Part shown: positions 8,616-64,000 of the stretch, one piece after another
How the letters are laid out: each line of letters opens with the position of its first letter
Numbering within the stretch: position 1 is the stretch's first letter
Assembly (NCBI RefSeq): GCF_947499215.1
Contig: NZ_CANMNI010000003.1
Span: forward strand, 682,001 to 746,000
DNA from: an uncultured Pontibacter sp.
GTDB lineage: Bacteria > Bacteroidota > Bacteroidia > Cytophagales > Hymenobacteraceae
Length of the DNA stretch: 64,000 bases
Direction: 5' to 3'
Notes under the pieces: generated by a model
Database searches by the model: none
What the model saw: the letters and a program-made list of their open reading frames with translations, nothing else
What the model was told of the DNA's origin: nothing
Made by a program: the position numbers and the translations under genes

Positions 8616-10801
8616 CGCACCAGCGTAACGGAGCCCTTGAATTTGTCAGCCCCTAAGTCAATCACGTAGAAATATACTCCGTCGTTCACGCCCTTTCCGT
8701 CCCATTTAAAGTTATGCTCGGTACTGGAGAACACCTCTTTGCCCCAGCGGTTATAGATGCGGATGTGCTGGAAAGCACTCGTGCACGCATCAGCCGGCAT
8801 ACCCGGTATCTCAAAAAAGTCGTTTAGTCCGTCCTCATTCGGGGTAAAGATGTTTGGCGGAACAAAGGAGCGGTATTCAGGTGCCTTTACGCGGAACTCC
8901 ATCACGATTGTCTGATCAGGGGAGGGCGAGCAGGCGTCCTCGCTCAAGCTGAAGGTGACACGGCTTACCCCCTGTGTAAAGGCATCGCAAGTCGCCACCC
9001 AGTTGAATTTACCTTCAGCGGTTCCAAATCCCCCGGTAGAGGTAAAGGTCATACCCAAGTCGGCTAAGTTAAAACCATCTCCAACCGCCCGCATACTCAG
9101 GAGGTGCTTGTCAAGGTCCGTTCCATTAAACAAAGCCTCAAAAGGCTCATTTAGGTCAACCTCAAAAACGAGCGTCTGCTTGTCTGTGGTGAGCACGGGC
9201 ACTTGGTTCGGGTAGTCGGTGCGTACCTCTATGCGTTCGGTGCGGGACACAGCTTCGCCGCAGACCATGGAGGTAGCCGTAAAATCAATCAGATAGGAGG
9301 GCTGCCGCAGTGCCTCACAGTCAATAAGCCATGAAAAAGGAGACATGACCTGACCTATTCCGGTTCGATTTTCGAAATTGATCGGTACGGTACCTAGGTT
9401 AAAGTTTACGCCCGTAGCCGTAATGGAAACTTCCTCATCGTCGGGGTCAAAGCCCAACACATTGAAGTCAATAAGATCGTTTTCACGGACAATGAAGACC
9501 CGATCTGGCTTGGAAATTTCAATGGATGGTGGCTCATTAGGTATAGGCTCGATGATGAAGCTGACCTCCAGCGTATCTTGCCGGGGCAGACTGCAGCCAT
9601 TGTCCTTAACGATCAGGTTCATTTTATATACCTTTCCCTCAGTGTCAAAACATTCGTCGAAACACAGCGTGGCCTTTAAGGAGTCGGTACCCGCTGTGCT
9701 GTTTACGATGCCTGTCGTGGCTCCTGAGAAAGAGTATAAGTCGCTTGTAAAGTTGACAGGCCGCGCATAGAGCGTAAGCGCAGAATTGGGGTCAGGGTCT
9801 GTAAAAACCACATTCAGACAACGGGCATCGGTAGGGCTGATGCGAATCACATCCCCTTTCTTGTAAAAGTCAGTTTGTCCATTCGCTCGGGCCTGTACCA
9901 CAGGACTGTCGTTCCGCGGGCAGTCTTTTACAAGCAGCTGAAAATCACGTCGCACTTCTCCAATCTTCACGCCGTCGCGATACTCTTGCGCCCGCACGCC
10001 AAACACATACAGACCCGCGCTTGCAGGGCGCACGGTCAGGCGTCCGGTTTGTGACTCTATCGTGATGGGAGGTGAGCCCAGTATCTGACTGGTGCGGCTA
10101 TAGCCGGGTCGCCACGTAATTTCTGGGTAGGGCGCTGGGCTCGGTGGTGGTGCCGCATTGTACGGGTCAGGAGTACTGTAGCCATTTAGAGGGGTAACCA
10201 TATCATACACAAGCGAGTCGCCGTCAGCATCTGTCCCACTAAAATCGTAATAAAAGAGATCATTGGCACAGGCATAATCGCTCAGCGGCGGGAAAAGCCT
10301 TGGTGAAGAGTTTACAAACGGTGCATTGTTTTTGGTGACAGGCGGAAACTCCATGTAGAAAGCCTGCGCGGCGTCTTCTGGCCGCACAATGTTATTGATG
10401 GTGCGGTTGCGGCAACAGCGTTCCCAGACAACATAATACCCCTGTGGACCGCTAAAGGACTGAGGGGAGAGAAACACGTCCTGATAATAGATCAGCCTTC
10501 TGGTGCGCAACTCCCCGATGGTGCAGGCTATATCAGTATAATTTACAAATGTATTGCTGCGCAGCGGCATGTACACATCCATTTTGAAAGCATTGGTCTG
10601 CTTGTCAAATATCCGGACTCTTACCTGCTGGTCCAGCGCACCCGGATCCCCGTTCACATCGTCAAAATAGAGGTTGAGGGTGAGGCGGTAGTAATACCCT
10701 TCCCGATGCTGCAGCTCAAACTCTCCGCCTACGATGTGGGTGGCCGCCGCCTGCAGGCTTAGCATAAACAGACTAAGTAAGAGGAGTAGAAGCTGCTTCA
10801 T
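8612..10801 (-). CDS. Gliding motility-associated C-terminal domain (CHU_C) surface protein
   Basis: A 729-residue exported protein. The signal peptide (MKQLLLLLLSLFMLSLQAAA) is followed by a domain beginning THIVGGEFEL, and then Ig/cadherin-like beta repeats with several DPD and DADGD acidic turns, probably calcium-binding. The last 85 or so residues start FVPPNIFTPNEDGLND and contain IYNRWGKEVF and DGKGVNDGVYFYVI. That is the CHU_C signature, a type B sorting signal for the type IX secretion system. It is expected to be exported across the outer membrane and displayed or released. The substrate or adhesive role cannot be read from sequence. Tail-to-tail overlap of four bases with the oxidase subunit gene. 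Confidence 0.92.
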   Translation of the reverse strand: MKQLLLLLLSLFMLSLQAAATHIVGGEFELQHREGYYYRLTLNLYFDDVNGDPGALDQQVRVRIFDKQTNAFKMDVYMPLRSNTFVNYTDIACTIGELRTRRLIYYQDVFLSPQSFSGPQGYYVVWERCCRNRTINNIVRPEDAAQAFYMEFPPVTKNNAPFVNSSPRLFPPLSDYACANDLFYYDFSGTDADGDSLVYDMVTPLNGYSTPDPYNAAPPPSPAPYPEITWRPGYSRTSQILGSPPITIESQTGRLTVRPASAGLYVFGVRAQEYRDGVKIGEVRRDFQLLVKDCPRNDSPVVQARANGQTDFYKKGDVIRISPTDARCLNVVFTDPDPNSALTLYARPVNFTSDLYSFSGATTGIVNSTAGTDSLKATLCFDECFDTEGKVYKMNLIVKDNGCSLPRQDTLEVSFIIEPIPNEPPSIEISKPDRVFIVRENDLIDFNVLGFDPDDEEVSITATGVNFNLGTVPINFENRTGIGQVMSPFSWLIDCEALRQPSYLIDFTATSMVCGEAVSRTERIEVRTDYPNQVPVLTTDKQTLVFEVDLNEPFEALFNGTDLDKHLLSMRAVGDGFNLADLGMTFTSTGGFGTAEGKFNWVATCDAFTQGVSRVTFSLSEDACSPSPDQTIVMEFRVKAPEYRSFVPPNIFTPNEDGLNDFFEIPGMPADACTSAFQHIRIYNRWGKEVFSSTEHNFKWDGKGVNDGVYFYVIDLGADKFKGSVTLVR

Positions 10802-16466: not shown

Positions 16467-16839
16467 GTCCTGTTCTCTGCGAGCTTTAAAGGAGGGCGGC
16501 ATTCATGATGAGTGCCGCCTTTTTTATGCAAAGCAGTGGCATGAGCCCAAGCATGCCGGCGGATGTAACAGTGGCTGTTTGTTTCCTATAACATGACAGA
16601 CGCAATATAGAACTCAGCTTAAGTAGTTATTGACACGGATTTTTGTTCAAGATTTTGTGTGTAGAGCGATGTTGTTGTCAAATTATTTATTGCAATTGCT
16701 TAGAATAACGGTGTTTTGGACGGAGTTTCTTTTACATAAATTGCACCGTTAGAAGCACTTATTGTAATGAACGAATTTGCAGTTTTTGAAAAAATATTTT
16801 ATATTTCGCATATTATATTAAGGATCAAGTGCTCTGCTT
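16467..16839. other. Intergenic region with terminator and AT-rich promoter zone
   Basis: 373 bases. It holds the M61 terminator near its start; the rest becomes very AT-rich towards the next STAS-like gene and should contain that gene's promoter. No ORF or RNA gene is evident. Confidence 0.5.
16495..16525 (+). terminator. Terminator of the M61 peptidase gene
   Basis: GGCGGCA (16495-16501) pairs with TGCCGCC (16513-16519) and is followed by six T. Confidence 0.88.
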
Positions 16840-17283
16840 ATGGTGATTAGCGATTCTAAACTTGCCCATATCTCTTTCTCGGAAAGCTTTGATATTCTTT
16901 CTATCAGGTGGAAAGCAAACCCTGATATGGAGCAGTTTAAAAATTTGTATTGGCAGGTACTGCAGTTTGTGAAGACGCAAAAGAAAATTTGCTACTATAG
17001 CACTGATATCTCACAGATAGGACCTTTTAACACAGATCAAGAGGCTTGGCTTAGCCGGGAGTATTACCCTCAGGTATCTAATATAATAGGGGAGAACATT
17101 TACGCAGCAGTTATATTTTCAGAGGGGCACTTTAAAGCGCTCGTGAATAATTACGTGGCTTCAGACCCGCTGCCATTAAATGATTTTATCCATTTCAACT
17201 ACTTTACGGATGTAGAGGAGGCTGCCGACTGGCTCAAGCTTATGCAAAAAGGTCAGGATGTTGCTTTTGCAGCTACATCCTGA
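16840..17283 (+). CDS. STAS-like protein, paralogue 2 of 3
   Basis: 147 residues, no signal peptide, clearly related to the proteins at 14130 and 19020. Shared landmarks: ISFSESFDILSIRWKA at the N-terminus, YSTDISQIGPFNTDQEAWLS (equivalent to LLDLREIG...EEEAWV), YYPQVSNIIG, YAAVIFSE and EEAADWL. It lacks obvious catalytic residues. An unusual point: its last codons form one arm of the transcription terminator of the convergent glutamate dehydrogenase gene. Function unknown; a regulatory switch role is only inferred from fold resemblance. Confidence 0.6.
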   Translation: MVISDSKLAHISFSESFDILSIRWKANPDMEQFKNLYWQVLQFVKTQKKICYYSTDISQIGPFNTDQEAWLSREYYPQVSNIIGENIYAAVIFSEGHFKALVNNYVASDPLPLNDFIHFNYFTDVEEAADWLKLMQKGQDVAFAATS

Positions 17284-17287
17284 CCTT
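17249..17287 (-). terminator. Terminator of glutamate dehydrogenase, embedded in the neighbouring CDS end
   Basis: AAGGTCAGGATGT (17249-17261) pairs perfectly with ACATCCTGACCTT (17275-17287), and on the minus strand it is followed by a T-run. It lies mostly within the final codons of the convergent STAS-like gene (stop at 17281-17283). Confidence 0.85.
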
Positions 17288-17316
17288 CTCAAATGCCCTT
17301 TGCTGTGCGGGCTATA

Positions 17317-18741
17317 TCAAGGGAATATGCCCAGCGCCTCATAGCTCACCCCAATCTTCTCAATCGCAGACAGGAAGGCGGCCGTACGCATGTCATGTAT
17401 ATCCTTTCTGTTCATAACCCCCCTTATTTCATGGTAGGCGTTGATCATGGTGTCCTCCAGCCCGGATCGCACCAAACTGATCTCATCAGCACCCTGAATG
17501 AGCAGGCTGCGCTCGTGTGTTGTGAGGCTTTTACCCGATGAACTTTCAATGGCGTTCACCAGTCTTCTATGGCTGGCTTCCTCTGCTCGTTTCCCCATAC
17601 GCCCAAAGCGAACATTAGAGAGGTTCTTCAGCCATTCGAAATACGAGACTGTCACACCACCCGCGTTAATGTATAGGTCCGGTATTATGATAATACCTTT
17701 TCCGAGCAGCACCTTCTCCGCATCACGCGTAACAGGGCCATTGGCGCCTTCCGCTATGATTTTGGCTTTTATGCGGTCGGCATTGCCGGCGTGGATCTGG
17801 TTTTCAAGAGCAGCCGGTATGAGGATGTCGCATTCCTCTTCGAGCAATTCTAAGGAGTTCTCAAAGTTCTTACACTTCCCAAGGCTCAGGATTGAACCCG
17901 TCTCGCTACGGTGTTTAAAGGCCTCTTCCACATCAATGCCATTCGCATTGTAAATGCCACCCTCACGTTCTGCTATACCTATGATGATGGCACCGTCCTG
18001 CTGGCAAAACTGGGCTGCGTTGTAGCCCACATTGCCGAGACCCTGCACAATAATGCGCTTGCCTTCCATGGTGTTCCCCTCGATCCCGGTTTTCTTCATA
18101 AGGTCTGTATCGCCAAGCGCCTCCCGTATGCCGTAGAACACACCCAAACCGGTAGCCTCTGCTCTTCCTCGTATACCTCCCTGTCCAACCGGCTTGCCCG
18201 TTACACAACCCAGTGCGTTGGTTTCGCCATACTTCAAGGCTTGGTAGGTGTCGGCAATCCAAGCCATTTCACGGCTGCCTGTACCATAGTCAGGTGCAGG
18301 CACATCCATACCCGGGCCGATCAGGTTTTTCTTGATCAGTTCAGCGGCATAGCGTCGGGTTACTTTTTCCAGTGTTTTAACGGAGCTGGTGCGTGGGTTT
18401 ATTTTCACGCCTCCCTTCGCGCCACCAAACGGCACGTCAACCACGGCGCACTTAAATGTCATCAGCGTGGCAAGGGCCTTCACCTCATCCTCGTCTACTT
18501 GCATGCTGAAACGGATGCCCCCTTTGGAAGGAAGCTTATGATGGCTATGCTGCACTCTGATCCCTTCAACTACCTCTACGCGGCCATCAATCTCAATTGG
18601 GAAAGACACTTTGTATACGCTATTGCAGGTTTTGATCTGTGCCAGAATGCCTGGGTCAAGTCTGGAATAACTGGCGGCGTGATCGAAGAACTGATGCACA
18701 CTCTCCAGAAATTTCTTGCCTTCATTTTGGGTGTTTGCCAT
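17317..18741 (-). CDS. Glu/Leu/Phe/Val dehydrogenase (glutamate dehydrogenase)
   Basis: Oxidatively deaminates glutamate to 2-oxoglutarate, or the reverse, linking amino-acid and central carbon metabolism in the cytoplasm. 474 residues. The substrate domain has GGIRFSMQVDEDEVKALATLM, Lys97 in MTFKCAVVDVPFGG and catalytic Lys109 in GGAKGGVKINP. The Rossmann motif is VQGLGNVGYNAAQF. The C-terminal part contains the conserved IIAEGANGP and LYINAGGVTVSYFEW. The sequence supports a glutamate-type enzyme, but leucine or related specificity cannot be fully excluded. Monocistronic, with a terminator embedded in the convergent gene. Confidence 0.93.
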   Translation of the reverse strand: MANTQNEGKKFLESVHQFFDHAASYSRLDPGILAQIKTCNSVYKVSFPIEIDGRVEVVEGIRVQHSHHKLPSKGGIRFSMQVDEDEVKALATLMTFKCAVVDVPFGGAKGGVKINPRTSSVKTLEKVTRRYAAELIKKNLIGPGMDVPAPDYGTGSREMAWIADTYQALKYGETNALGCVTGKPVGQGGIRGRAEATGLGVFYGIREALGDTDLMKKTGIEGNTMEGKRIIVQGLGNVGYNAAQFCQQDGAIIIGIAEREGGIYNANGIDVEEAFKHRSETGSILSLGKCKNFENSLELLEEECDILIPAALENQIHAGNADRIKAKIIAEGANGPVTRDAEKVLLGKGIIIIPDLYINAGGVTVSYFEWLKNLSNVRFGRMGKRAEEASHRRLVNAIESSSGKSLTTHERSLLIQGADEISLVRSGLEDTMINAYHEIRGVMNRKDIHDMRTAAFLSAIEKIGVSYEALGIFP

Positions 18742-56204: not shown

Positions 56205-56603
56205 TTATTGAATAAGCGCCCGCTCCTTCAGCCAGTCGAAAATGATCTGGTCGACGGGCGACACGGCCGCTCTGTCCTGATAGGTCAGCCACACCACTTC
56301 TTCTATTTCGCTGGCGGCGGCGATCGTGCCCGTGTAGGCGCCGGTATAGCAGGTCATCTGCACCTGCACCTCCTCCGGATGGCTGTCGGCCTGTGCCTGA
56401 AATATACCTAGGAAGCGGGTGCTGTCCTCGATCAGGGAAACGCTGAGCTCTTCGTTAATTTCCCGCGACAACGCCTCAAAGTCGCTCTCTCCCTGTTCCC
56501 GTTTCCCGCCGGGGAAATAGTATTTGGTTCTGCCCTTGCTGCGGGTGCTCAGTATTTTGCCGTCTCGGATTTCGATCCAAGCGAGTTTGTCGATGATGTG
56601 CAT
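56205..56603 (-). CDS. Nudix hydrolase
   Basis: 132 residues from MHIIDKLAWIEIRDG. The Nudix box is complete: GGKREQGESDFEALSREINEEL, i.e. G-x5-E-x7-R-E-x2-E-E. It hydrolyses nucleoside diphosphates linked to another moiety; the specific substrate is unknown. It is the last GC-normal gene before the AT-rich island. Confidence 0.93.
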   Translation of the reverse strand: MHIIDKLAWIEIRDGKILSTRSKGRTKYYFPGGKREQGESDFEALSREINEELSVSLIEDSTRFLGIFQAQADSHPEEVQVQMTCYTGAYTGTIAAASEIEEVVWLTYQDRAAVSPVDQIIFDWLKERALIQ

Positions 56604-56612
56604 GGGAGGCAA

Positions 56613-56918
56613 AGATAGGGAAGGGGATTACAAATCTCTATAACCGCCTTTGAAGACTTCGTTTACATGCCAAGTGGTGAAATCGGGGTTAGGGTAGAAG
56701 GCTTTCTTTTGAGGAGGGTTAATGGATTTACCGTGGTGCTGGAGTAGCTATGAATTAGCATTTGTCTCCTAAATATTCAATTAAAATGTTAAAATATGAG
56801 TTAACAAGATTGGGATTAACATTACTGTATTAACGTATTTATATATTTTGTTTTGGTTATACTAAATATATGTTTTAACATTATGTTTGAAAACTAACTT
56901 ATAACTAGTGATAGATAT
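56613..56918. other. Island boundary region
   Basis: About 300 bases between the Nudix gene and the helicase gene, in which base composition falls sharply towards AT. No tRNA, integrase or obvious direct repeat is seen here. It presumably contains the promoter of the helicase operon. Confidence 0.5.
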
Positions 56919-58517
56919 ATGGATTTCCAAAAGTTAATAACACGTCTAGATGAAGAGTTTGTACAGACAATAGTAGGGAAAGATGTACTATCTATTCTTA
57001 ATATACTTGATCCAAACCTCTCAAGATTACAGAAACTACAAGAAGTATTATTAACTATTTATTCTCCTTTAGAGCTTATTCAAGATAAAGACATTAGGAA
57101 TTTATTCATTGATGTATTAAAGGTTGAGGAAATTAAAGATTTATCCAATAAACTAGGTGTTAATTTTGATGACAATGTTTACTCTAATCTGAAAAAAATA
57201 AATTATAATAAAGACTATGAGAAATCAATTCTTTATGAATTTTTAGGGATCAACTTACCAGAGAAAGAAAAACCGCTAGAATTAGAATATAAAGAAAACA
57301 TATCTTGTAACTATCCCCTTTTTCTACATCAAAGAGAAGCTTTGACAGAAGTATCAACAAAACTATACACTGATAATAGAAAAGTATTACTTCATATGCC
57401 AACTGGTTCTGGTAAAACCCGAACTGCTATGAATGCGGTATGTAATCACTTAAGATACTCTGAACCTACACTAGTTATCTGGTTTGCTAATACTGAAGAA
57501 TTATGTGGGCAAGCTTATGAAGAGTTTTCTAAAGCTTGGAAGTATTTAGGAAATAGAGAATTAAAAACTGTTAAATTTTGGGGTGCATCTAAAGAAAATA
57601 TTAGTGAGGTTAGAGATGGTGTTATAATTGCAGGCTTGGCTAAAACCTATGAGCTATTAAAATCTGATTTGTCAATATTTAGTAAATTGGCTACACGATT
57701 AACTCTGATAGTAATGGATGAAGCTCACATGTCCATTGCTCCTACATATAAATCTATATTGGAAATCCTAACCTCCTCCAATTCTAGTTTGTTAGGTCTA
57801 TCTGCAACTCCAGGACGCACTTGGAATGATCCAACAGCAGATATAGAGCTAGCAGATTTTTTTGACAGAAGAAAAGTTACATTAAAAATAGAAGGTTTTT
57901 CAAATCCAGTAGAATATTTAATTGATAGAGGTTATTTAGCCAAAATATTAAATAGGCCCTTACTCTATTCTTCTGGATTAAAATTGACTCCTAAAGATAT
58001 AGATTACCTAAAAGACTATTTACAGCTACCAGAAGATATTCTACAAAGAATTTCAGAAGATAAGCAACGAAATATCCGCATTATTCAAGAAATAGAAAAT
58101 TTAATTGAAAGGCATAAAAGGATAATACTTTTTGCAATTAACGTTGAACATTCTAATTTGCTAGCCACCATTTTGCAGGCAAGAAGTGTTAATGCCTTTT
58201 CGATTACAAGTAAAACAGATCCAGCTCAGAGGAAGGAGCTTATTAAGCTATTTAAATCTGATGATTCCCAATCATTAGTATTATGTAATTATGGTATTCT
58301 CACTACAGGATTTGATGCTCCTAAAACCAGTTGTGCTGTAATTGCTAGACCCACAGACTCTTTGGTCCTTTACAGCCAAATGGTAGGTAGGGCGATTAGA
58401 GGAACAAATGCTGGAGGTAACTCTGAAGCTGAAATAGTAACAGTTATTGATACTGCTTTACCAGGATTTGATAAAATAGAATCCGCTTTTTTCAATTGGG
58501 AGGATGTTTGGAACTAA
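56919..58517 (+). CDS. Superfamily 2 DEAH-box helicase of a putative defence operon
   Basis: 532 residues. About 130 N-terminal residues are of unknown type; the helicase core has a Q-like HQREAL (137-142), Walker A PTGSGKT (161-167), DEAH (267-270), motif III-like SATPGR (295-300) and motif VI QMVGRAIRG near the C-terminus. This resembles the helicases of restriction systems more than RecQ or UvrB. No nuclease domain is fused. It is the first gene of a three-gene operon, followed after 22 bases by a GHKL ATPase. Strongly AT-rich, unlike the flanking genome. Confidence 0.9.
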   Translation: MDFQKLITRLDEEFVQTIVGKDVLSILNILDPNLSRLQKLQEVLLTIYSPLELIQDKDIRNLFIDVLKVEEIKDLSNKLGVNFDDNVYSNLKKINYNKDYEKSILYEFLGINLPEKEKPLELEYKENISCNYPLFLHQREALTEVSTKLYTDNRKVLLHMPTGSGKTRTAMNAVCNHLRYSEPTLVIWFANTEELCGQAYEEFSKAWKYLGNRELKTVKFWGASKENISEVRDGVIIAGLAKTYELLKSDLSIFSKLATRLTLIVMDEAHMSIAPTYKSILEILTSSNSSLLGLSATPGRTWNDPTADIELADFFDRRKVTLKIEGFSNPVEYLIDRGYLAKILNRPLLYSSGLKLTPKDIDYLKDYLQLPEDILQRISEDKQRNIRIIQEIENLIERHKRIILFAINVEHSNLLATILQARSVNAFSITSKTDPAQRKELIKLFKSDDSQSLVLCNYGILTTGFDAPKTSCAVIARPTDSLVLYSQMVGRAIRGTNAGGNSEAEIVTVIDTALPGFDKIESAFFNWEDVWN

Positions 58518-58539
58518 TTTAAAGCTAACAAATAAATAG

Positions 58540-60342
58540 ATGGATAATTTAATTGTGCCTGCACACTTAGTCGTGAAGGCAATGAGAGATAATGGTTATA
58601 AAAATGCTGCTTATGCATTAGCCGAATTAATGGATAATTCAATTCAACATGGAGCTAAAAATGTTGAATTGCTATGTAGCGAAGCCGAATTTACCTATAA
58701 CTTAAGAAGCGTATTTAGAATTAATCAAATCGCTGTACTAGATGATGGTAGTGGGATGGATAGTAATATATTAAGAATTGCTCTCCAGTTTGGAAATGGT
58801 ACAAATCTAGATCCTAAAACTCAAACGGGAATTGGCAAATTCGGTATGGGATTGCCTTCATCTTCAATATCTCAGGCACAAAGAGTAGAAGTCTGGAGCT
58901 GGCAAAGTGGGGTAGAAAATTCTATTTATACTTATCTAGATATTGATGAAATTATTAACCAAAAAATGAAGGAGGTGCCTTCTCCAGTGCATAAACCTAT
59001 TCCTGATTTATGGAGAAAGGCAGGTAAAACATTTGGAGCAAGTGGTACCTTAGTTGTTTGGTCTAAAATTGATCGTTGTATCTGGAAGACGGCACAAGCT
59101 ATTATTGATAATTCAGAATTCTTGATAGGTAGGATGTATAGAAAGTTTCTCAATGAAGGAAATGCTAAGATTCGCATGGCAGCATTTAGAGAAGCAAATC
59201 CTTCTAAGCCCACCTATGAAAAACTTTCTGCCCCAAATGACCCTATATATTTAATGTCTAATACTTCTTGTCCTGCTCCTTATGACAATCAAGCTATGTT
59301 TAACAGATGGGGTGAAGAAGATTACGAGATTAAATTTGATGTTAATTACGATAATAAGAAGCATGAAGTAAAAGTCAGGTTTACTTATGCAAAAGAAGAA
59401 GCTAGACAGGGTTACAATGCGGGTAGCAAACCTCATGGAAAACATGCTTCTAAGAATATAGGTGTTTCCTTATTACGTGCTGATAGAGAACTCGATTTAG
59501 ATCAGACATGGGTTATTCAATATGATCCAAGGGAAAGATGGTGGGGAGCAGAAGTGGAATTTCCTCCCTCATTAGATGAGTTATTCGGTGTTACGAATAA
59601 TAAGCAATTTGCTAACAACTTCTCAGAGCTTGGGAAGCTAAATATTGAGGAGGTGCTTAAGGATGGGAGAACTTATAGCCAGTTTAAAGAAGAACTTATG
59701 GAGGAGAACGATCCTAAAGCTCTATTACTGGATATAGCTTACAAAATCAAAAATCAATTAAATGCTATAAGAGCAGCTATAAAAGCTCAAGCCAAAAACC
59801 TCGAGCGGAGTGATAAGGAAAGACACTCTACAGAAACTTCTCCTGAACAAGTAGCAACTGAAGCAACTGAAGAAAGAATTAAAGAAGGTCATATTGGTAC
59901 AAGTGATAAGCAAGAAGAGAAATCTGAAGACGAAAGAAAAAGAGATGTCGAAACTTCACTTGAGCAAGAAGGTGTAACAAATGCGACCGAAGTAGTTGAG
60001 CGTATGTTTACAAATAATTTAAAGTATCAGTTCGTAGATTCAGATTTTGAAAGTCATGCTTTCTTTTCTGTTAAAAGTAGAGGTGGTAAAATTCTAATTT
60101 CTCTTAACACAAACCATCCCGCATACCACAAATTAGTTGAAGTATTAGAAAAAGACTCGGAAATTGAAGGTGAAGATATTTTAAGAGATAGACTACAGAA
60201 TGCATCAGAAGGATTGAAACTTTTATTAATGGCTTGGGCAAGATATGAGGATGAACAGCCAGATGGCAGTCTGAAGAGTAGTACTCAAAATGCAAGAATG
60301 GATTGGGGTAGAGTCGCTAAAGATTTTCTGAAAGGCGATTAA
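58540..60342 (+). CDS. GHKL (MORC/HSP90-type) ATPase of the putative defence operon
   Basis: 600 residues. The Bergerat ATP-binding fold is intact: N-box ELMDNSIQHGA (E29, N33), G1 box DDGSGM (68-73) and G2 box GIGKFGMGLPSSS (97-109). The order and spacing look like MORC/MutL-type ATPases rather than histidine kinases; no H-box. A transducer-like middle part follows, then a Glu/Lys-rich low-complexity linker (about 425-485) carrying two ETSxEQ repeats. The C-terminal domain is of unknown type. It ends five bases before the PLD gene. Such ATPases are expected to clamp DNA on ATP binding (inference). Confidence 0.88.
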   Translation: MDNLIVPAHLVVKAMRDNGYKNAAYALAELMDNSIQHGAKNVELLCSEAEFTYNLRSVFRINQIAVLDDGSGMDSNILRIALQFGNGTNLDPKTQTGIGKFGMGLPSSSISQAQRVEVWSWQSGVENSIYTYLDIDEIINQKMKEVPSPVHKPIPDLWRKAGKTFGASGTLVVWSKIDRCIWKTAQAIIDNSEFLIGRMYRKFLNEGNAKIRMAAFREANPSKPTYEKLSAPNDPIYLMSNTSCPAPYDNQAMFNRWGEEDYEIKFDVNYDNKKHEVKVRFTYAKEEARQGYNAGSKPHGKHASKNIGVSLLRADRELDLDQTWVIQYDPRERWWGAEVEFPPSLDELFGVTNNKQFANNFSELGKLNIEEVLKDGRTYSQFKEELMEENDPKALLLDIAYKIKNQLNAIRAAIKAQAKNLERSDKERHSTETSPEQVATEATEERIKEGHIGTSDKQEEKSEDERKRDVETSLEQEGVTNATEVVERMFTNNLKYQFVDSDFESHAFFSVKSRGGKILISLNTNHPAYHKLVEVLEKDSEIEGEDILRDRLQNASEGLKLLLMAWARYEDEQPDGSLKSSTQNARMDWGRVAKDFLKGD

Positions 60343-60347
60343 TTTAT

Positions 60348-61301
60348 ATGTTATTTAAGAATGGCGTCAACCTAAATAAAAGCTTAGAAGAATTTGTGAA
60401 AAATTCTTCTAAGCTTTATATATATGTTCCTTATATAAAGCTAAAACCATTAAAAGAAATCTTAGCAGAGACTAAAAATGTTGAGCTCATTATCGTAAGA
60501 TGGGAACCTAAAGATTTACTATCGGGCGCTTCTGATTTAGAGGTATATCCTTTTCTGAAAGAGAGAGGAATAACACTTTATCGTAACAAACGTCTGCATA
60601 TGAAGGCTTTCTTGGATAACTATGAGCGTTGTTTGATTGGTAGTGCCAATATTTCTAGTCGTGCATTAAACATACCATTATCTCCAAATTATAATTATGA
60701 ATTAGCAACGATTGTAGGCAGTTTGTCTTTAGAAGATCGTTTGTATTTTATAAACATAGAGAAAGAAAGTTTATTAATAACTGACAATGTTTATGAACAG
60801 ATAAAAGCTCAGCTGCTAGAGAAGGATTTTGACTTTGAAATAGAGAATGATTTTCAAATCAGGTTTGAAGCTCCTGATAAAGATTTTCTGATTTCATCTC
60901 TTCCTATGAGTTTTAATGTTGCCAGTTTTTTCTCTATATACCAAAACGGGAATGCTCCGAATGAAGTAGAGCTCAATTGCTTCCTCCATGATTTAACTTT
61001 GTATGACATCCCTTTAGGATTATCACCAAATGAGCTATTCTTAAGATTACAAAGTTCTTTCTTTACGCATCCATTCATAGCTGCATTTGTAGATTTCTTA
61101 AAATTGAAAGGGGAATTAAGATTTGGAGCTGTAAAGGAATGGATTCAAAAAAGTTGCGAGGATGTTCCTATACCTAGAAGATGGGAAATAACTGAAAACA
61201 TACAGATACTTTATCGCTGGATAACTACATTAGGTGAGGGTAACTTCAGAATTTATCAACCAAATCACTCACAGGTGCTACAGTTTGTAAGTAAAGTTTG
61301 A
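60348..61301 (+). CDS. Phospholipase D-family nuclease of the putative defence operon
   Basis: 317 residues with one HKD motif: RLHMKAF (H84, K86) followed by GSANISSRAL (98-107, with the Asn). A single HKD per chain implies a dimer, as in Nuc/BfiI-type enzymes. The N-terminal part has the PLD-like strand pattern (KLYIYVPYIKLKPLKEIL, VELIIVRWEPKD). About 150 C-terminal residues are unrecognised helices. It is the last gene of the helicase-GHKL-PLD operon and the likely DNA- or RNA-cutting component. No methyltransferase is visible in the operon. Confidence 0.85.
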   Translation: MLFKNGVNLNKSLEEFVKNSSKLYIYVPYIKLKPLKEILAETKNVELIIVRWEPKDLLSGASDLEVYPFLKERGITLYRNKRLHMKAFLDNYERCLIGSANISSRALNIPLSPNYNYELATIVGSLSLEDRLYFINIEKESLLITDNVYEQIKAQLLEKDFDFEIENDFQIRFEAPDKDFLISSLPMSFNVASFFSIYQNGNAPNEVELNCFLHDLTLYDIPLGLSPNELFLRLQSSFFTHPFIAAFVDFLKLKGELRFGAVKEWIQKSCEDVPIPRRWEITENIQILYRWITTLGEGNFRIYQPNHSQVLQFVSKV

Positions 61302-61459: not shown

Positions 61460-62158
61460 TTATTGTTTGGTAACATTATCTAATGCTTTAGAAAAGTACA
61501 AAGAAAAGGGCAGTGAAATAGAAACTTTATAAAATCGGTCTCTAGTTTTTCTTAAAAAAATATAGGATAAAATCAGTATTAAGTAAAGTAAGATATATCG
61601 TGGCTGACTATTGAAAAGGCTAAGTTTTGAAAAAAATATAGTGCCAAATGTCATAATAATGCCCATAGTCCCTATAATGACAGATATGTTACCGATATGA
61701 TTAGAAAGATGTGATCTGAATGTAAAAGTATATACTTTATGATCTGCCTCTGGTACTAAGCCCATCACGATTCTTCTCTTGTCTCTAATACTAATATTCT
61801 CAAAACAGTAATTTAAACCTAGTTTGCTATATCGTTCTTTTAGAAGATCATTAACAATTAAAAAATTCTCCTCTTTTGCTATTTCTAATTCGATCCTTTT
61901 TTTATAAGATTTCTTGCCTCTAATTTTTTCTTTGAAAGTACTTAAACCATATACCGCATGCCCTATTAAGTACGAGATAATTAGCAACGTTAAAGTATAG
62001 TATTCATCGCGTTCATTATGTAAGTGAAAATTAAATAGAAAGTCTTGTTTCACACATGTTGAGATTACTATAATTAAATATGCATCAGGTAAAAAATAAC
62101 CTATTATGTCCCAGATAAATTCTTTAAATGAATTGAAAAGTGTACTTATTCCCTCCAT
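61460..62158 (-). CDS. Four-helix membrane protein, unknown function
   Basis: 232 residues with two hydrophobic pairs (about 10-32 with 50-72; about 152-170 with 185-205) separated by a charged, lysine-rich cytoplasmic region (KEKIRGKKSYKKRIELEI). No family recognised. It is the third gene of the minus-strand operon, 12 bases after the PP-loop gene, and AT-rich like its neighbours. A membrane effector of a defence module is possible but unproven. Confidence 0.7.
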   Translation of the reverse strand: MEGISTLFNSFKEFIWDIIGYFLPDAYLIIVISTCVKQDFLFNFHLHNERDEYYTLTLLIISYLIGHAVYGLSTFKEKIRGKKSYKKRIELEIAKEENFLIVNDLLKERYSKLGLNYCFENISIRDKRRIVMGLVPEADHKVYTFTFRSHLSNHIGNISVIIGTMGIIMTFGTIFFSKLSLFNSQPRYILLYLILILSYIFLRKTRDRFYKVSISLPFSLYFSKALDNVTKQ

Positions 62159-62170
62159 AGCTAAAGAAGC

Positions 62171-63277
62171 TTAAATAAAACAAGCAGCACAACCTTCACT
62201 TTCAGAATCATCTAAGATATCTAATAAGTAAGGTGATTTAATGTTTGAAGATAACCTCTCTTGTCGCTTAACATACTCTTCTTTTATTTGCTTGACCCTA
62301 TCTGGTCTAATGAGTTCTGCTAAGCTTTCTTCCTGATTCCAAGTATAGCCATCTTTCTCATACTCCATAGCTTGTTCATAAAGCTCAGGATGTTGTTCAT
62401 GTAGCCATACCCATTCAATTTTTTGCTGAAAGAAGCAGAAGTAACAGCCAGAACGGCTTCTAGAGTACTCACCTTTTTTGCCACTAGCATCAAATTCTAT
62501 TTTCTTGTAGTAAGCAGGAACACCTACACCACTTTCTTCAAGAATGCGGAAGATATCATCCCTTACAAGATTTTCTTCATTCTCAACTAAAGGAAAATCT
62601 TCTTCTTTAGCTAAGGGATAATCAGTTGACTTTAAAAATTCAAATATGAGATAATTCGTCTCTTTTGTGCCTAAGTCTAAGAGTTGGTTTAGCTTATTAT
62701 GCAAGGTAAAGCTGTAATCAAGTGGCTTAGAAAGCAACTCAACAAAGCGTGAGCTTCGAGAGCCAAGATCTACAACCTCTGTTAGCGAAATCGCTTTGTC
62801 AATATTACTAGAATTTAAAAACTTATTGACCACATCTTCGCTCCATATATTCCTTCTGAAAGGAAATATAGACTGTATGTTTGACTTTCTAGATATATAA
62901 CCTTCACGATCTTCATCACCCCTGATGCCTACATAGGATACTACTTGGTCATTGCCTATGTACTTTTCAAAAGGCTCTAGCTTTAGCTTCTTAGTACACC
63001 ATCTTGAGTTAGAAGAAGGTAGGTAACCGCCATATATTTTAAGGAAGTGGTCAAATGGATTCATGTGGCTACCATCAGCTGCATTTAGCAGATGTATCTT
63101 TTTACCAAGATACACTTCAAGATTTTCGATGAGCTTGTAAGTCTCATCTAGCTCCTTACCTGTGTCGCTAGTATAGTAATCAATATCAAGCTGCGGATAC
63201 TTGCTCTTCATGTATATAGCAAGAGCAGCACTATCTTTACCTCCAGAAATACCCAATAAATGTCTTACTTTGCTCAT
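62171..63277 (-). CDS. PP-loop (PAPS reductase/DndC-like) ATP pyrophosphatase
   Basis: 368 residues. The PP-loop motif GISGGKDSAALAIYM begins near residue 9. Four conserved blocks follow: YYTSDTGKEL, LPSSNSRWCTKKLKLEPFE, SYVGIRGDEDREGY, and a cysteine-rich pair SGCYFCFFQQKIEW and C-terminal EGCAACFI. The cysteines could hold an iron-sulfur cluster, as in DndC/PAPS-reductase proteins. The gene is shorter than a typical DndC and there is no dndB, D or E beside it. It overlaps the preceding gene by four bases (ATGA), indicating coupling. Its likely chemistry is adenylation plus sulfur or related group transfer. Confidence 0.85.
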   Translation of the reverse strand: MSKVRHLLGISGGKDSAALAIYMKSKYPQLDIDYYTSDTGKELDETYKLIENLEVYLGKKIHLLNAADGSHMNPFDHFLKIYGGYLPSSNSRWCTKKLKLEPFEKYIGNDQVVSYVGIRGDEDREGYISRKSNIQSIFPFRRNIWSEDVVNKFLNSSNIDKAISLTEVVDLGSRSSRFVELLSKPLDYSFTLHNKLNQLLDLGTKETNYLIFEFLKSTDYPLAKEEDFPLVENEENLVRDDIFRILEESGVGVPAYYKKIEFDASGKKGEYSRSRSGCYFCFFQQKIEWVWLHEQHPELYEQAMEYEKDGYTWNQEESLAELIRPDRVKQIKEEYVKRQERLSSNIKSPYLLDILDDSESEGCAACFI

Positions 63278-64000
63278 CCCTGTGTTAACTCTTTTAATAA
63301 AATTGCTAATGCTGCAATATTTAAGCTTTTGTCTTTTGACAGTGCGGCCTTGAGTGACTCCTGAATCTCATTTACCTCACCTGCTTTTTTCTTCGGTAGC
63401 CTTACTAAGCTACGCTTCGTGCCGTCAATAAATGAGTCAAATTGCAAGCTCAATACATCCTCTTTATCAGTATCAATATCAGCCGCAGAGATGGTGGTTA
63501 GATTGTCAAGTTCTAGAATTAGCGTTTTGAACTTATCACGTAATAACAATTCTTCTTCGTCTGTTATATTTTCTAGAGACTTCCCAACCACCGCTTGACT
63601 TAGTGAACTCAACCATGCTTTTCTATCGTCAAGAGCAGAATCTAGTCTTTGTACAAAGGGTCTTTGCTTAGGTAATAGTAAATGCTTCTTCAGTCCTTTG
63701 TACCTTTTCTGTAGCTTCTCTTTATATGCGACGAAATCACAGTCTTCATAAACTATTTCCTGCTGTATAAACTCTTCGAATCGCATAACTAACTCATCAT
63801 GGCTAGTTCTTATTTCTCTAATAGTAGATTGAAGGCTATTAACGTATTCATTGAGTTTTATCTTACTAGCTTCTAATTCTGAAATAGATGTACCGAGAGC
63901 GGCTGGAAGTTCTTCAAAGAAAACCCTCTCAGGGTCCTGAGAAGCTGCAATAACATCTCTTACCGCTATGGCCTCTTTAGTTAGGCGCTTCGTTTTCTTG
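63274..64000 (-). CDS. Large coiled-coil-containing protein, 5' part beyond the window
   Basis: The frame is open from the right edge to the stop at 63274, so only the C-terminal 242 residues or so are visible. An internal ATG at 63784-63786 is unlikely to be the start. Visible features: IAASQDPERVFFEELPAALG near the edge, a long helical coiled-coil stretch (SISELEASKIKLNEYVNSLQ, then TIREIRTSHDELV) and a charged helical C-terminus. No catalytic motif is in the visible part. It overlaps the PP-loop gene by four bases and is its probable partner; a large ATPase is a guess that the missing part must confirm. Confidence 0.65.
   Translation of the reverse strand, partial: KKTKRLTKEAIAVRDVIAASQDPERVFFEELPAALGTSISELEASKIKLNEYVNSLQSTIREIRTSHDELVMRFEEFIQQEIVYEDCDFVAYKEKLQKRYKGLKKHLLLPKQRPFVQRLDSALDDRKAWLSSLSQAVVGKSLENITDEEELLLRDKFKTLILELDNLTTISAADIDTDKEDVLSLQFDSFIDGTKRSLVRLPKKKAGEVNEIQESLKAALSKDKSLNIAALAILLKELTQG

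Follow-up and report, generated by a model that had tools for sequence, protein, structure and literature searches.

The window, a stretch of 64,000 nucleotides from an uncultured Pontibacter sp. (contig NZ_CANMNI010000003.1), contains a three-gene operon encoding a superfamily 2 (SF2) helicase, a GHKL ATPase and a single-HKD PLD-type protein. This trio probably constitutes the restriction arm of an Ssp-type phosphorothioate (PT) restriction-modification system that is distinct from SspE, SspFGH and Pbe. The assignment was preferred because sspBCD adjoins the trio both here and in most of its well-flanked relatives. Comparison of their sequences established the conservation of gene set and gene order, of the linkage to SspBCD and of active-site residues. 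An earlier note, made from the sequence alone, had proposed a candidate defence operon of no named type, and this was supported: the three genes recur in conserved order in distant genomes, and none of the defence-family models searched fits the trio.

The operon and the adjoining sspBCD module

All three genes are located on the + strand, with spacings of 22 bases between the helicase and GHKL genes and of 5 bases between the GHKL and PLD genes; the listing of open reading frames (ORFs) agrees with the coordinates and gaps given in the earlier note. The first ORF (56919..58517, 532 aa) encodes a RadD/PbeA-like DEAH helicase that matched the Pfam families ResIII (2e-23), DEAD and Helicase_C, with ~130 residues at the N-terminus lying outside the Pfam helicase match. 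Its best match among solved structures, as determined by profile searches, was RadD (8e-36). The second ORF (58540..60342, 600 aa) encodes the GHKL ATPase, which matched HATPase_c_3 (2e-20) and had MORC2, MORC3 and MORC4 as its best solved-structure matches (7e-7). The strict S5 motif in the MORC definition of Iyer et al. (2008), GhXhhpXXRhl, was present in 0/44 rows of the GHKL alignment and in 44/44 once position 10 was relaxed. Since all of its profile matches in the PDB (9/9) were MORC proteins, the protein can still be classed as MORC-like, despite falling outside the strict family definition. The third ORF (60348..61301, 317 aa) encodes a probable nuclease with a single HKD motif and a match to PLDc_2, whose best profile match among solved structures was 7clg, a 'putative helicase' (3e-4). 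Its predicted structure (mean predicted local distance difference test score, pLDDT, 90.1; predicted template modelling score, pTM, 0.55) comprises a mixed alpha/beta part up to residue ~157, a low-confidence linker (residues 164–175) and a helical C-terminal region (residues ~191–295). PLD enzymes with one HKD motif are expected to act as dimers, and the protein is therefore probably dimeric.

Residue conservation was determined in alignments of near-full-length rows, with the window protein counted among the rows. K166, the DEAH motif, R491 and R494 of the helicase were invariant in 35/35 rows, as were E29, D32, N33, D68 and G72 of the GHKL protein in 44/44 rows and H84, K86, S99, N101 and E118 of the PLD protein in 45/45 rows. 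Outside its catalytic residues the PLD protein diverges fast, with relatives that are 17–56% identical to that of the window.

The earlier note had described the trio as standing alone, without a modification gene, which had to be corrected. The sspD-sspC genes, convergent with the trio, lie 870 bases past the PLD gene on the opposite strand. SspD (62171..63277, – strand) is the PAPS-reductase-type protein of the phosphorothioation module (PADLOC SspD, 7e-96; PF01507, 2e-6), and the C-terminal part of the SspC ATPase is encoded up to the end of the window (63274..64000, – strand). The coordinates of full SspC and of SspB were taken from the host contig beyond the window: the gene for SspC (1074 aa; PADLOC SspC, E 0) extends to window-equivalent position 66498, and SspB (DUF4007, 315 aa; PF13182, 8e-73; PADLOC SspB, 1e-103) is encoded in the same – strand operon at window-equivalent positions 66485–67432. 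Because the contig past the window encodes full SspC and SspB, the island contains a complete operon of the PT modification module, sspBCD. Its GC content, calculated from position 56650 to the end of sspB, is 34.7%, compared with 52.1% in the left and 56.3% in the right flank. SspA is absent from the island. Elsewhere in the host genome there are three genes with strong matches to Aminotran_5, and IscS is reported to be able to replace SspA (PMC8092258). A further gene (61460..62158, – strand), which follows sspD at a distance of 12 bases, encodes a small accessory protein that, judged by eye from its sequence, is probably a membrane protein; a single-sequence model of it detected one weak relative in the plasmid and genome loci examined, situated between the PLD and SspD genes of a Flavobacterium locus (L102).

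Recurrence of the trio with Ssp genes

A collection of species genomes was scanned with GHKL patterns alone, using a seed alignment whose members had been picked by similarity and are mostly Ssp-linked themselves, and the best 80 of the 259 relatives were analysed as loci. In the following, the count among the 49 loci with at least 8 kb on both sides is given after that for all 80. The helicase gene was adjacent to the GHKL gene in 75/80 (46/49) loci and a PLD gene directly downstream of it in 54/80 (36/49), giving a complete helicase-GHKL-PLD order in 51/80 (34/49). At least one Ssp gene was found in 65/80 (43/49) loci, at least two in 59/80 (41/49), and the whole trio together with at least two in 43/80 (32/49). 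The co-occurrence in distant genomes that the earlier note had named as a check was thus observed. Gene arrangement was assessed in 61 loci, composed of the 59 genome loci with at least two Ssp genes and two viral ones. Ssp genes lay upstream on the same strand in 37 of them, within 261 bases in 18, and were convergent with the trio, as in the window, in 15.

Loci that hold the complete trio plus two or more Ssp genes came from Bacteroidota, Cyanobacteriota, Armatimonadota, Chloroflexota, Bacillota, Actinomycetota and Pseudomonadota, with phyla inferred from the organism names in record titles, many of which denote metagenome bins. A Treponema plasmid (L029, Spirochaetota) carries the same combination, with the trio paired there with a BrxP-type PAPS reductase (PADLOC BrxP, 5e-81); a PAPS-reductase/ferredoxin protein resembling the latter is encoded in L094.

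For plasmids, a tblastn search with the GHKL protein matched 49 records, of which 15 were read. In 12 of these (L018–L029), the GHKL gene adjoined a helicase gene and at least one Ssp gene was present in the stretch. A PLD gene was recognised in ten; the exceptions were the rhizobial plasmids L025 and L026, in which an unrelated 359-aa protein without significant Pfam match is encoded at the PLD position (9028–10107 and 16786–17865, respectively). The helicase is diverged in these two plasmids, and in L025, from Agrobacterium, an FtsK gene set shares one island with the helicase-GHKL pair. On a Pannonibacter plasmid (L024), an N-6 methylase is also encoded nearby, and plasmid A of Trichormus variabilis ATCC 29413 (L019) encodes a cysteine desulfurase in addition to sspBCD and the trio. 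The remaining three plasmids contained remote GHKL relatives: that of L031 has a helicase gene and SspC/SspD in its vicinity together with a weak match to PLD, and those of L030 and L032 have no Ssp genes nearby. Viral contigs yielded no relative when scanned with a single GHKL protein and two relatives when scanned with the GHKL alignment, both with the trio and Ssp genes. Two partial GHKL matches were obtained in phages, and E. coli genomes gave no match to a single GHKL query, the gene of L113.

The linkage was also examined in a sample of 395 genomes from the phylum of the host. SspD was detected in 23 of them and the GHKL protein, at an E-value of 1e-20 or better, in eight, frequencies at which proximity by chance is negligible. 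Seven of the eight GHKL genes adjoin Ssp genes, and the eighth (genome G061, L039), a short match, lies close to the end of a contig on which no other gene was recognised. As a negative control, six GHKL genes belonging to other clades were taken from relatives at the genus and order level; they had no helicase, PLD or Ssp gene nearby.

Viewed from the modification module, the trio stood beside 7 of the 21 SspBCD loci in the phylum sample, a count from which two SspD matches lacking both SspB and SspC (L176, L177) were excluded. Other loci carried FtsK (L164), SspG (L165) or PglZ (L162). A PbeC- or LmuB-like ABC ATPase was encoded in L168 (5475–7688), L170 (2291–4462) and L171 (13081–15204), which possibly represent Ssp-Pbe hybrids; these ATPase genes adjoin a weakly helicase-like gene, and a cysteine desulfurase gene lies near those of L170 and L171. 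Large proteins with GHKL-type domains are encoded beside SspBCD in L166, L167 and L169. Those of L166 (12137–14590) and L169 (5175–7598), ~810 aa in length and with a weak match to HATPase_c_3, are perhaps a further GHKL-type Ssp partner; ORFs of the same size are present in L172 and L175.

Known systems and competing explanations

In a 2021 survey, 2,211 of 2,678 sspBCD loci were without SspE or SspFGH, and further restriction partners were raised as a possibility (PMC8092258); the trio fits such predicted partners of the 'orphan' majority. It resembles SspFGH of SspABCD-SspFGH in being a three-gene restriction cassette beside sspBCD that provides an alternative to SspE, but part of SspH resembles FtsK/SpoIIIE and SspF contains a Walker A motif, in contrast to the SF2 helicase, GHKL and PLD proteins encoded here (PMC8092258). 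An identity with SspFGH was rejected, as neither SspF, SspG nor SspH was among the matches listed for eight window proteins (for the helicase, the best 25 of 29) or for SspB and SspC. One SspG model gave no match in the host genome, but the controls were also silent with that model. SspABCD-SspE has the modification module in common with the island and differs in its effector, a DUF262-DUF1524 (GmrSD-type) protein (PMC11662687). SspE was rejected as the effector since no match to PF03235 (SspE-type, GmrSD_N) was obtained in the host genome, with a model that matched 8 of 14 controls.

DndCDEA-PbeABCD is likewise PT-linked, and its PbeA contains both SF2 helicase and HKD nuclease parts (PMC6459918, PMC10853773). 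PbeA was the best defence-model match of the window helicase (4e-29), with the best stretch covering model positions 234–501 of 672. In PbeABCD, however, helicase and HKD domains form one protein, whose partners include an ABC ATPase of the CxC type and a protein resembling DndE (PMC6459918, PMC10853773), whereas the trio consists of separate proteins, includes a GHKL ATPase and is associated with Ssp instead of Dnd. This assignment was rejected because the PbeA match is partial and no PbeC was among the matches listed.

Operons with MORC-type GHKL ATPases and SF2 helicases, a few of them with HKD domains, were predicted to be restriction-like by Iyer et al. in 2008 (PMC2292703). There, the HKD domain is N-terminal in the helicase, and the terms 'PAPS' and 'phosphorothio' occur 0 times in the part of the article available (PMC2292703). 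The gene set may nevertheless have been drawn in that study before the PT link could be seen, because its legends name Anabaena variabilis and Nitrococcus mobilis (PMC2292703), both of which carry the trio gene set (L019 and L113, respectively). Several further assignments were rejected. For DISARM, DrmC models matched at 5.7e-5 or worse, the NCBIfam DrmC model reached 15.9 bits (cut-off 133), and no other Drm protein was among the matches listed; for MZA, the MzaB equivalog model scored 70.9 bits (cut-off 850); for type 4 BREX, neither PglZ nor BrxL was among the matches listed for the scanned window genes, SspB and SspC; and RadD itself was dismissed on a model score of 99.6 bits (1.4e-28; cut-off 720). 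A literature search, which covered open-access work and thus lacked most subscription papers, retrieved no account of the present pairing or of any GHKL/MORC-type ATPase that takes part in PT defence, and neither the main text of Rakesh et al. (2024) nor that of a 2026 BREX survey contains a word that begins with GHKL or MORC. The island thus probably represents an Ssp system with an apparently undescribed restriction arm.

From these homologies we infer a sulfur mark, its reading, DNA cleavage, protection against phages and the formation of a complex. SspBCD would mark host DNA with sulfur, with a cysteine desulfurase from elsewhere in the genome probably standing in for SspA. Powered by ATP, the helicase, which is RadD/PbeA-like, and the GHKL ATPase would act as one unit that engages DNA, moves along it and, where the sulfur mark is missing, delivers it to the PLD enzyme. 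The latter, probably as a dimer, would nick or cut the DNA. The arrangement of clamp, helicase and dimeric nuclease proposed in the earlier note thus appears plausible. CglI/NgoAVII, with an R-protein of the PLD type, is the closest tested parallel to a nuclease that is driven by a separate helicase; the NgoFVII PLD model PF09565 was not among the Pfam matches of the window PLD protein. CglI and NgoAVII combine a nuclease with a separate DEAD-family helicase, in CglI as an R2N2 assembly, and cleave with heavy ATP use, but they are methyltransferase-based, and no GHKL subunit is named in the available part of the source (PMC4267653).

Several findings weigh against a restriction arm of this kind. 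The PLDc_2 match of the PLD protein (1e-5, 25.8 bits) lies slightly below the 27-bit cut-off. The statement in the earlier note that all motifs are intact held for the catalytic residues, which were invariant in every row, and needed correction for the HKD aspartate, which is displaced by one position in the window protein (D90, with N91 in the column that holds D in 33/45 rows). The helicase ORF was shorter than 480 aa in 12/78 loci, some of them at contig ends and some perhaps decayed, and in 31/80 loci at least one flank was shorter than 8 kb. PbeABCD, although PT-linked and equipped with a helicase-HKD protein, is reported not to cleave viral DNA (PMC6459918). Finally, ten of the 80 genomes encoded the helicase and the GHKL protein with no convincing Ssp module detected, and the tree distances of helicase and GHKL correlated weakly (0.10–0.26) with those of SspB/C/D.

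PbeABCD also bears on the first alternative, in which the trio is an Ssp effector that does not cut unmarked DNA and instead is activated by PT, blocks the replication of phage DNA or kills the infected cell. This appears rather unlikely, yet it has precedents: PT switches SspE on (PMC11662687), PbeABCD halts replication without visible cleavage (PMC6459918), the helicase has PbeA as its best defence-model match, and a GmrSD (SspE-like) protein replaces the PLD protein beside helicase-GHKL in three loci. It is opposed by the retention of H84 and K86 of the PLD protein in all 45 rows and by the lack of a PT-sensing domain among the Pfam matches of the trio, though such a site could escape detection. 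As the PT mark is reported to be protective for SspFGH and activating for SspE, the two modes predict opposite toxicity of the trio in cells without sspBCD.

A second alternative, in which the trio acts as a defence system of its own and merely shares defence islands with Ssp, was judged improbable. It would account for the ten genomes in which no convincing Ssp module was detected, namely five Chloroflexota bins and L055, L057, L063, L067 and L069; for L063 and L067 the search used DUF4007 alone, and L055 and L057 gave weak SspD-like matches, the one read (L180) being without SspB or SspC. The Chloroflexota bins (L084, L085, L089, L090, L111) carry helicase-GHKL without PLD or Ssp genes, and the neighbours scanned in L111 were metabolic and tRNA-synthetase genes; the pair is perhaps put to a different use in this group. 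In five other genomes (L058, L064, L068, L088, L098), Ssp genes were located elsewhere in the genome. Tree distances, compared for the 46 loci with all six genes, correlated at 0.85–0.92 within SspB/C/D and at 0.82 between helicase and GHKL, while the PLD protein gave values of 0.31–0.49 with helicase or GHKL and of 0.32–0.36 with SspB/C/D. High correlations within and low ones between modules show that helicase-GHKL and SspBCD are two stable modules that swap partners in evolution, and pairing with sspBCD is similarly patchy for SspE and SspFGH (PMC8092258). The linkage of trio and Ssp is accordingly kept by function or selection and not by joint descent. The presence of at least two Ssp genes in 41 of the 49 well-flanked loci and the operon-like arrangement in 18/61 speak against mere sharing of islands.

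The location of the island can be read in favour of both this alternative and the main reading, since the site is a defence hotspot that varies among sibling genomes. Between the Nudix gene and a gene for a 1301-aa protein, which we take to be AsmA-like, sibling G015 carries genes for a C5-cytosine methylase, an HNH protein and a GHKL protein other than that of the trio (L192, 6338–10467), and sibling G005 carries, among other genes, one for a helicase-PLD-DUF3427 protein (L194, 824–3988). In sibling G014, PLD, MrcB-like and PD-(D/E)XK proteins are encoded between the FUSC gene and a gene for an 864-aa, presumably PEP-carboxylase-like, protein (L193, 4530–9479); the stretch beside the FUSC gene in sibling G021 contains ordinary genes. 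The Nudix gene flanking the island (56205–56612) matches the PADLOC candidate model PDC-S07 (3e-15). It is probably a housekeeping gene, because siblings G015 and G005 possess it without the island.

A role of the trio in DNA repair, with a RadD-like helicase and a MutL/MORC-like ATPase as its components, is very improbable, for although the helicase profile fits the RadD structures and model, the patchy distribution of the GHKL gene (8/395 genomes of the phylum sample), the AT-rich island, the plasmid-borne relatives and the Ssp linkage speak against it.

Possible exchange of the nuclease and its implications

The nuclease of the trio may be exchangeable. An HNH or GmrSD gene was found within 6 kb of the GHKL gene in 12/26 loci without downstream PLD compared with 5/54 loci with PLD, with the loci of one group not being independent in these counts. 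A GmrSD (SspE-like) protein accompanied a full-length helicase in three loci without PLD (L049, L051, L107), and in L107 its gene directly follows the GHKL gene at the usual place of PLD. In the nine other cases, an HNH gene lies upstream of the helicase gene. All nine belong to one cyanobacterial group (L042, L043, L044, L046, L048, L052, L053, L059, L062) and combine an HTH (helix-turn-helix)-HNH protein, a shortened helicase, GHKL and Ssp. As the helicase ORF is short in every case (138–369 aa), they may represent a different architecture or decayed copies. Ten of the remaining 14 loci without PLD also lacked Ssp genes in the locus; the other four (L041, L066, L073, L081) contained Ssp genes with no PLD downstream and no other nuclease found, although in L081 a PLD gene is located on the other strand.

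These distributions hint at a constant helicase-GHKL core with a replaceable nuclease. A broader reading is that helicase-GHKL forms a general chassis for PT restriction, which takes interchangeable nucleases (PLD, HNH, GmrSD) and has SspBCD as its partner, in some variants with an SspD of the BrxP type, in at least eight bacterial phyla. We consider this possible but somewhat doubtful, because other nucleases also occur in 5/54 PLD loci and the nine HNH cases come from one cyanobacterial group with short helicases. If true, the helicase-GHKL chassis would add a third class to the known Ssp effectors and explain a sizeable share of the 'orphan' sspBCD loci.

The trio itself is a candidate for the missing restriction partners of these loci. 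It would bring a GHKL (MORC/HSP90-like) ATPase into the reading of, or action on, backbone sulfur, and would suggest that restriction can be built as a fixed motor with a changeable nuclease.

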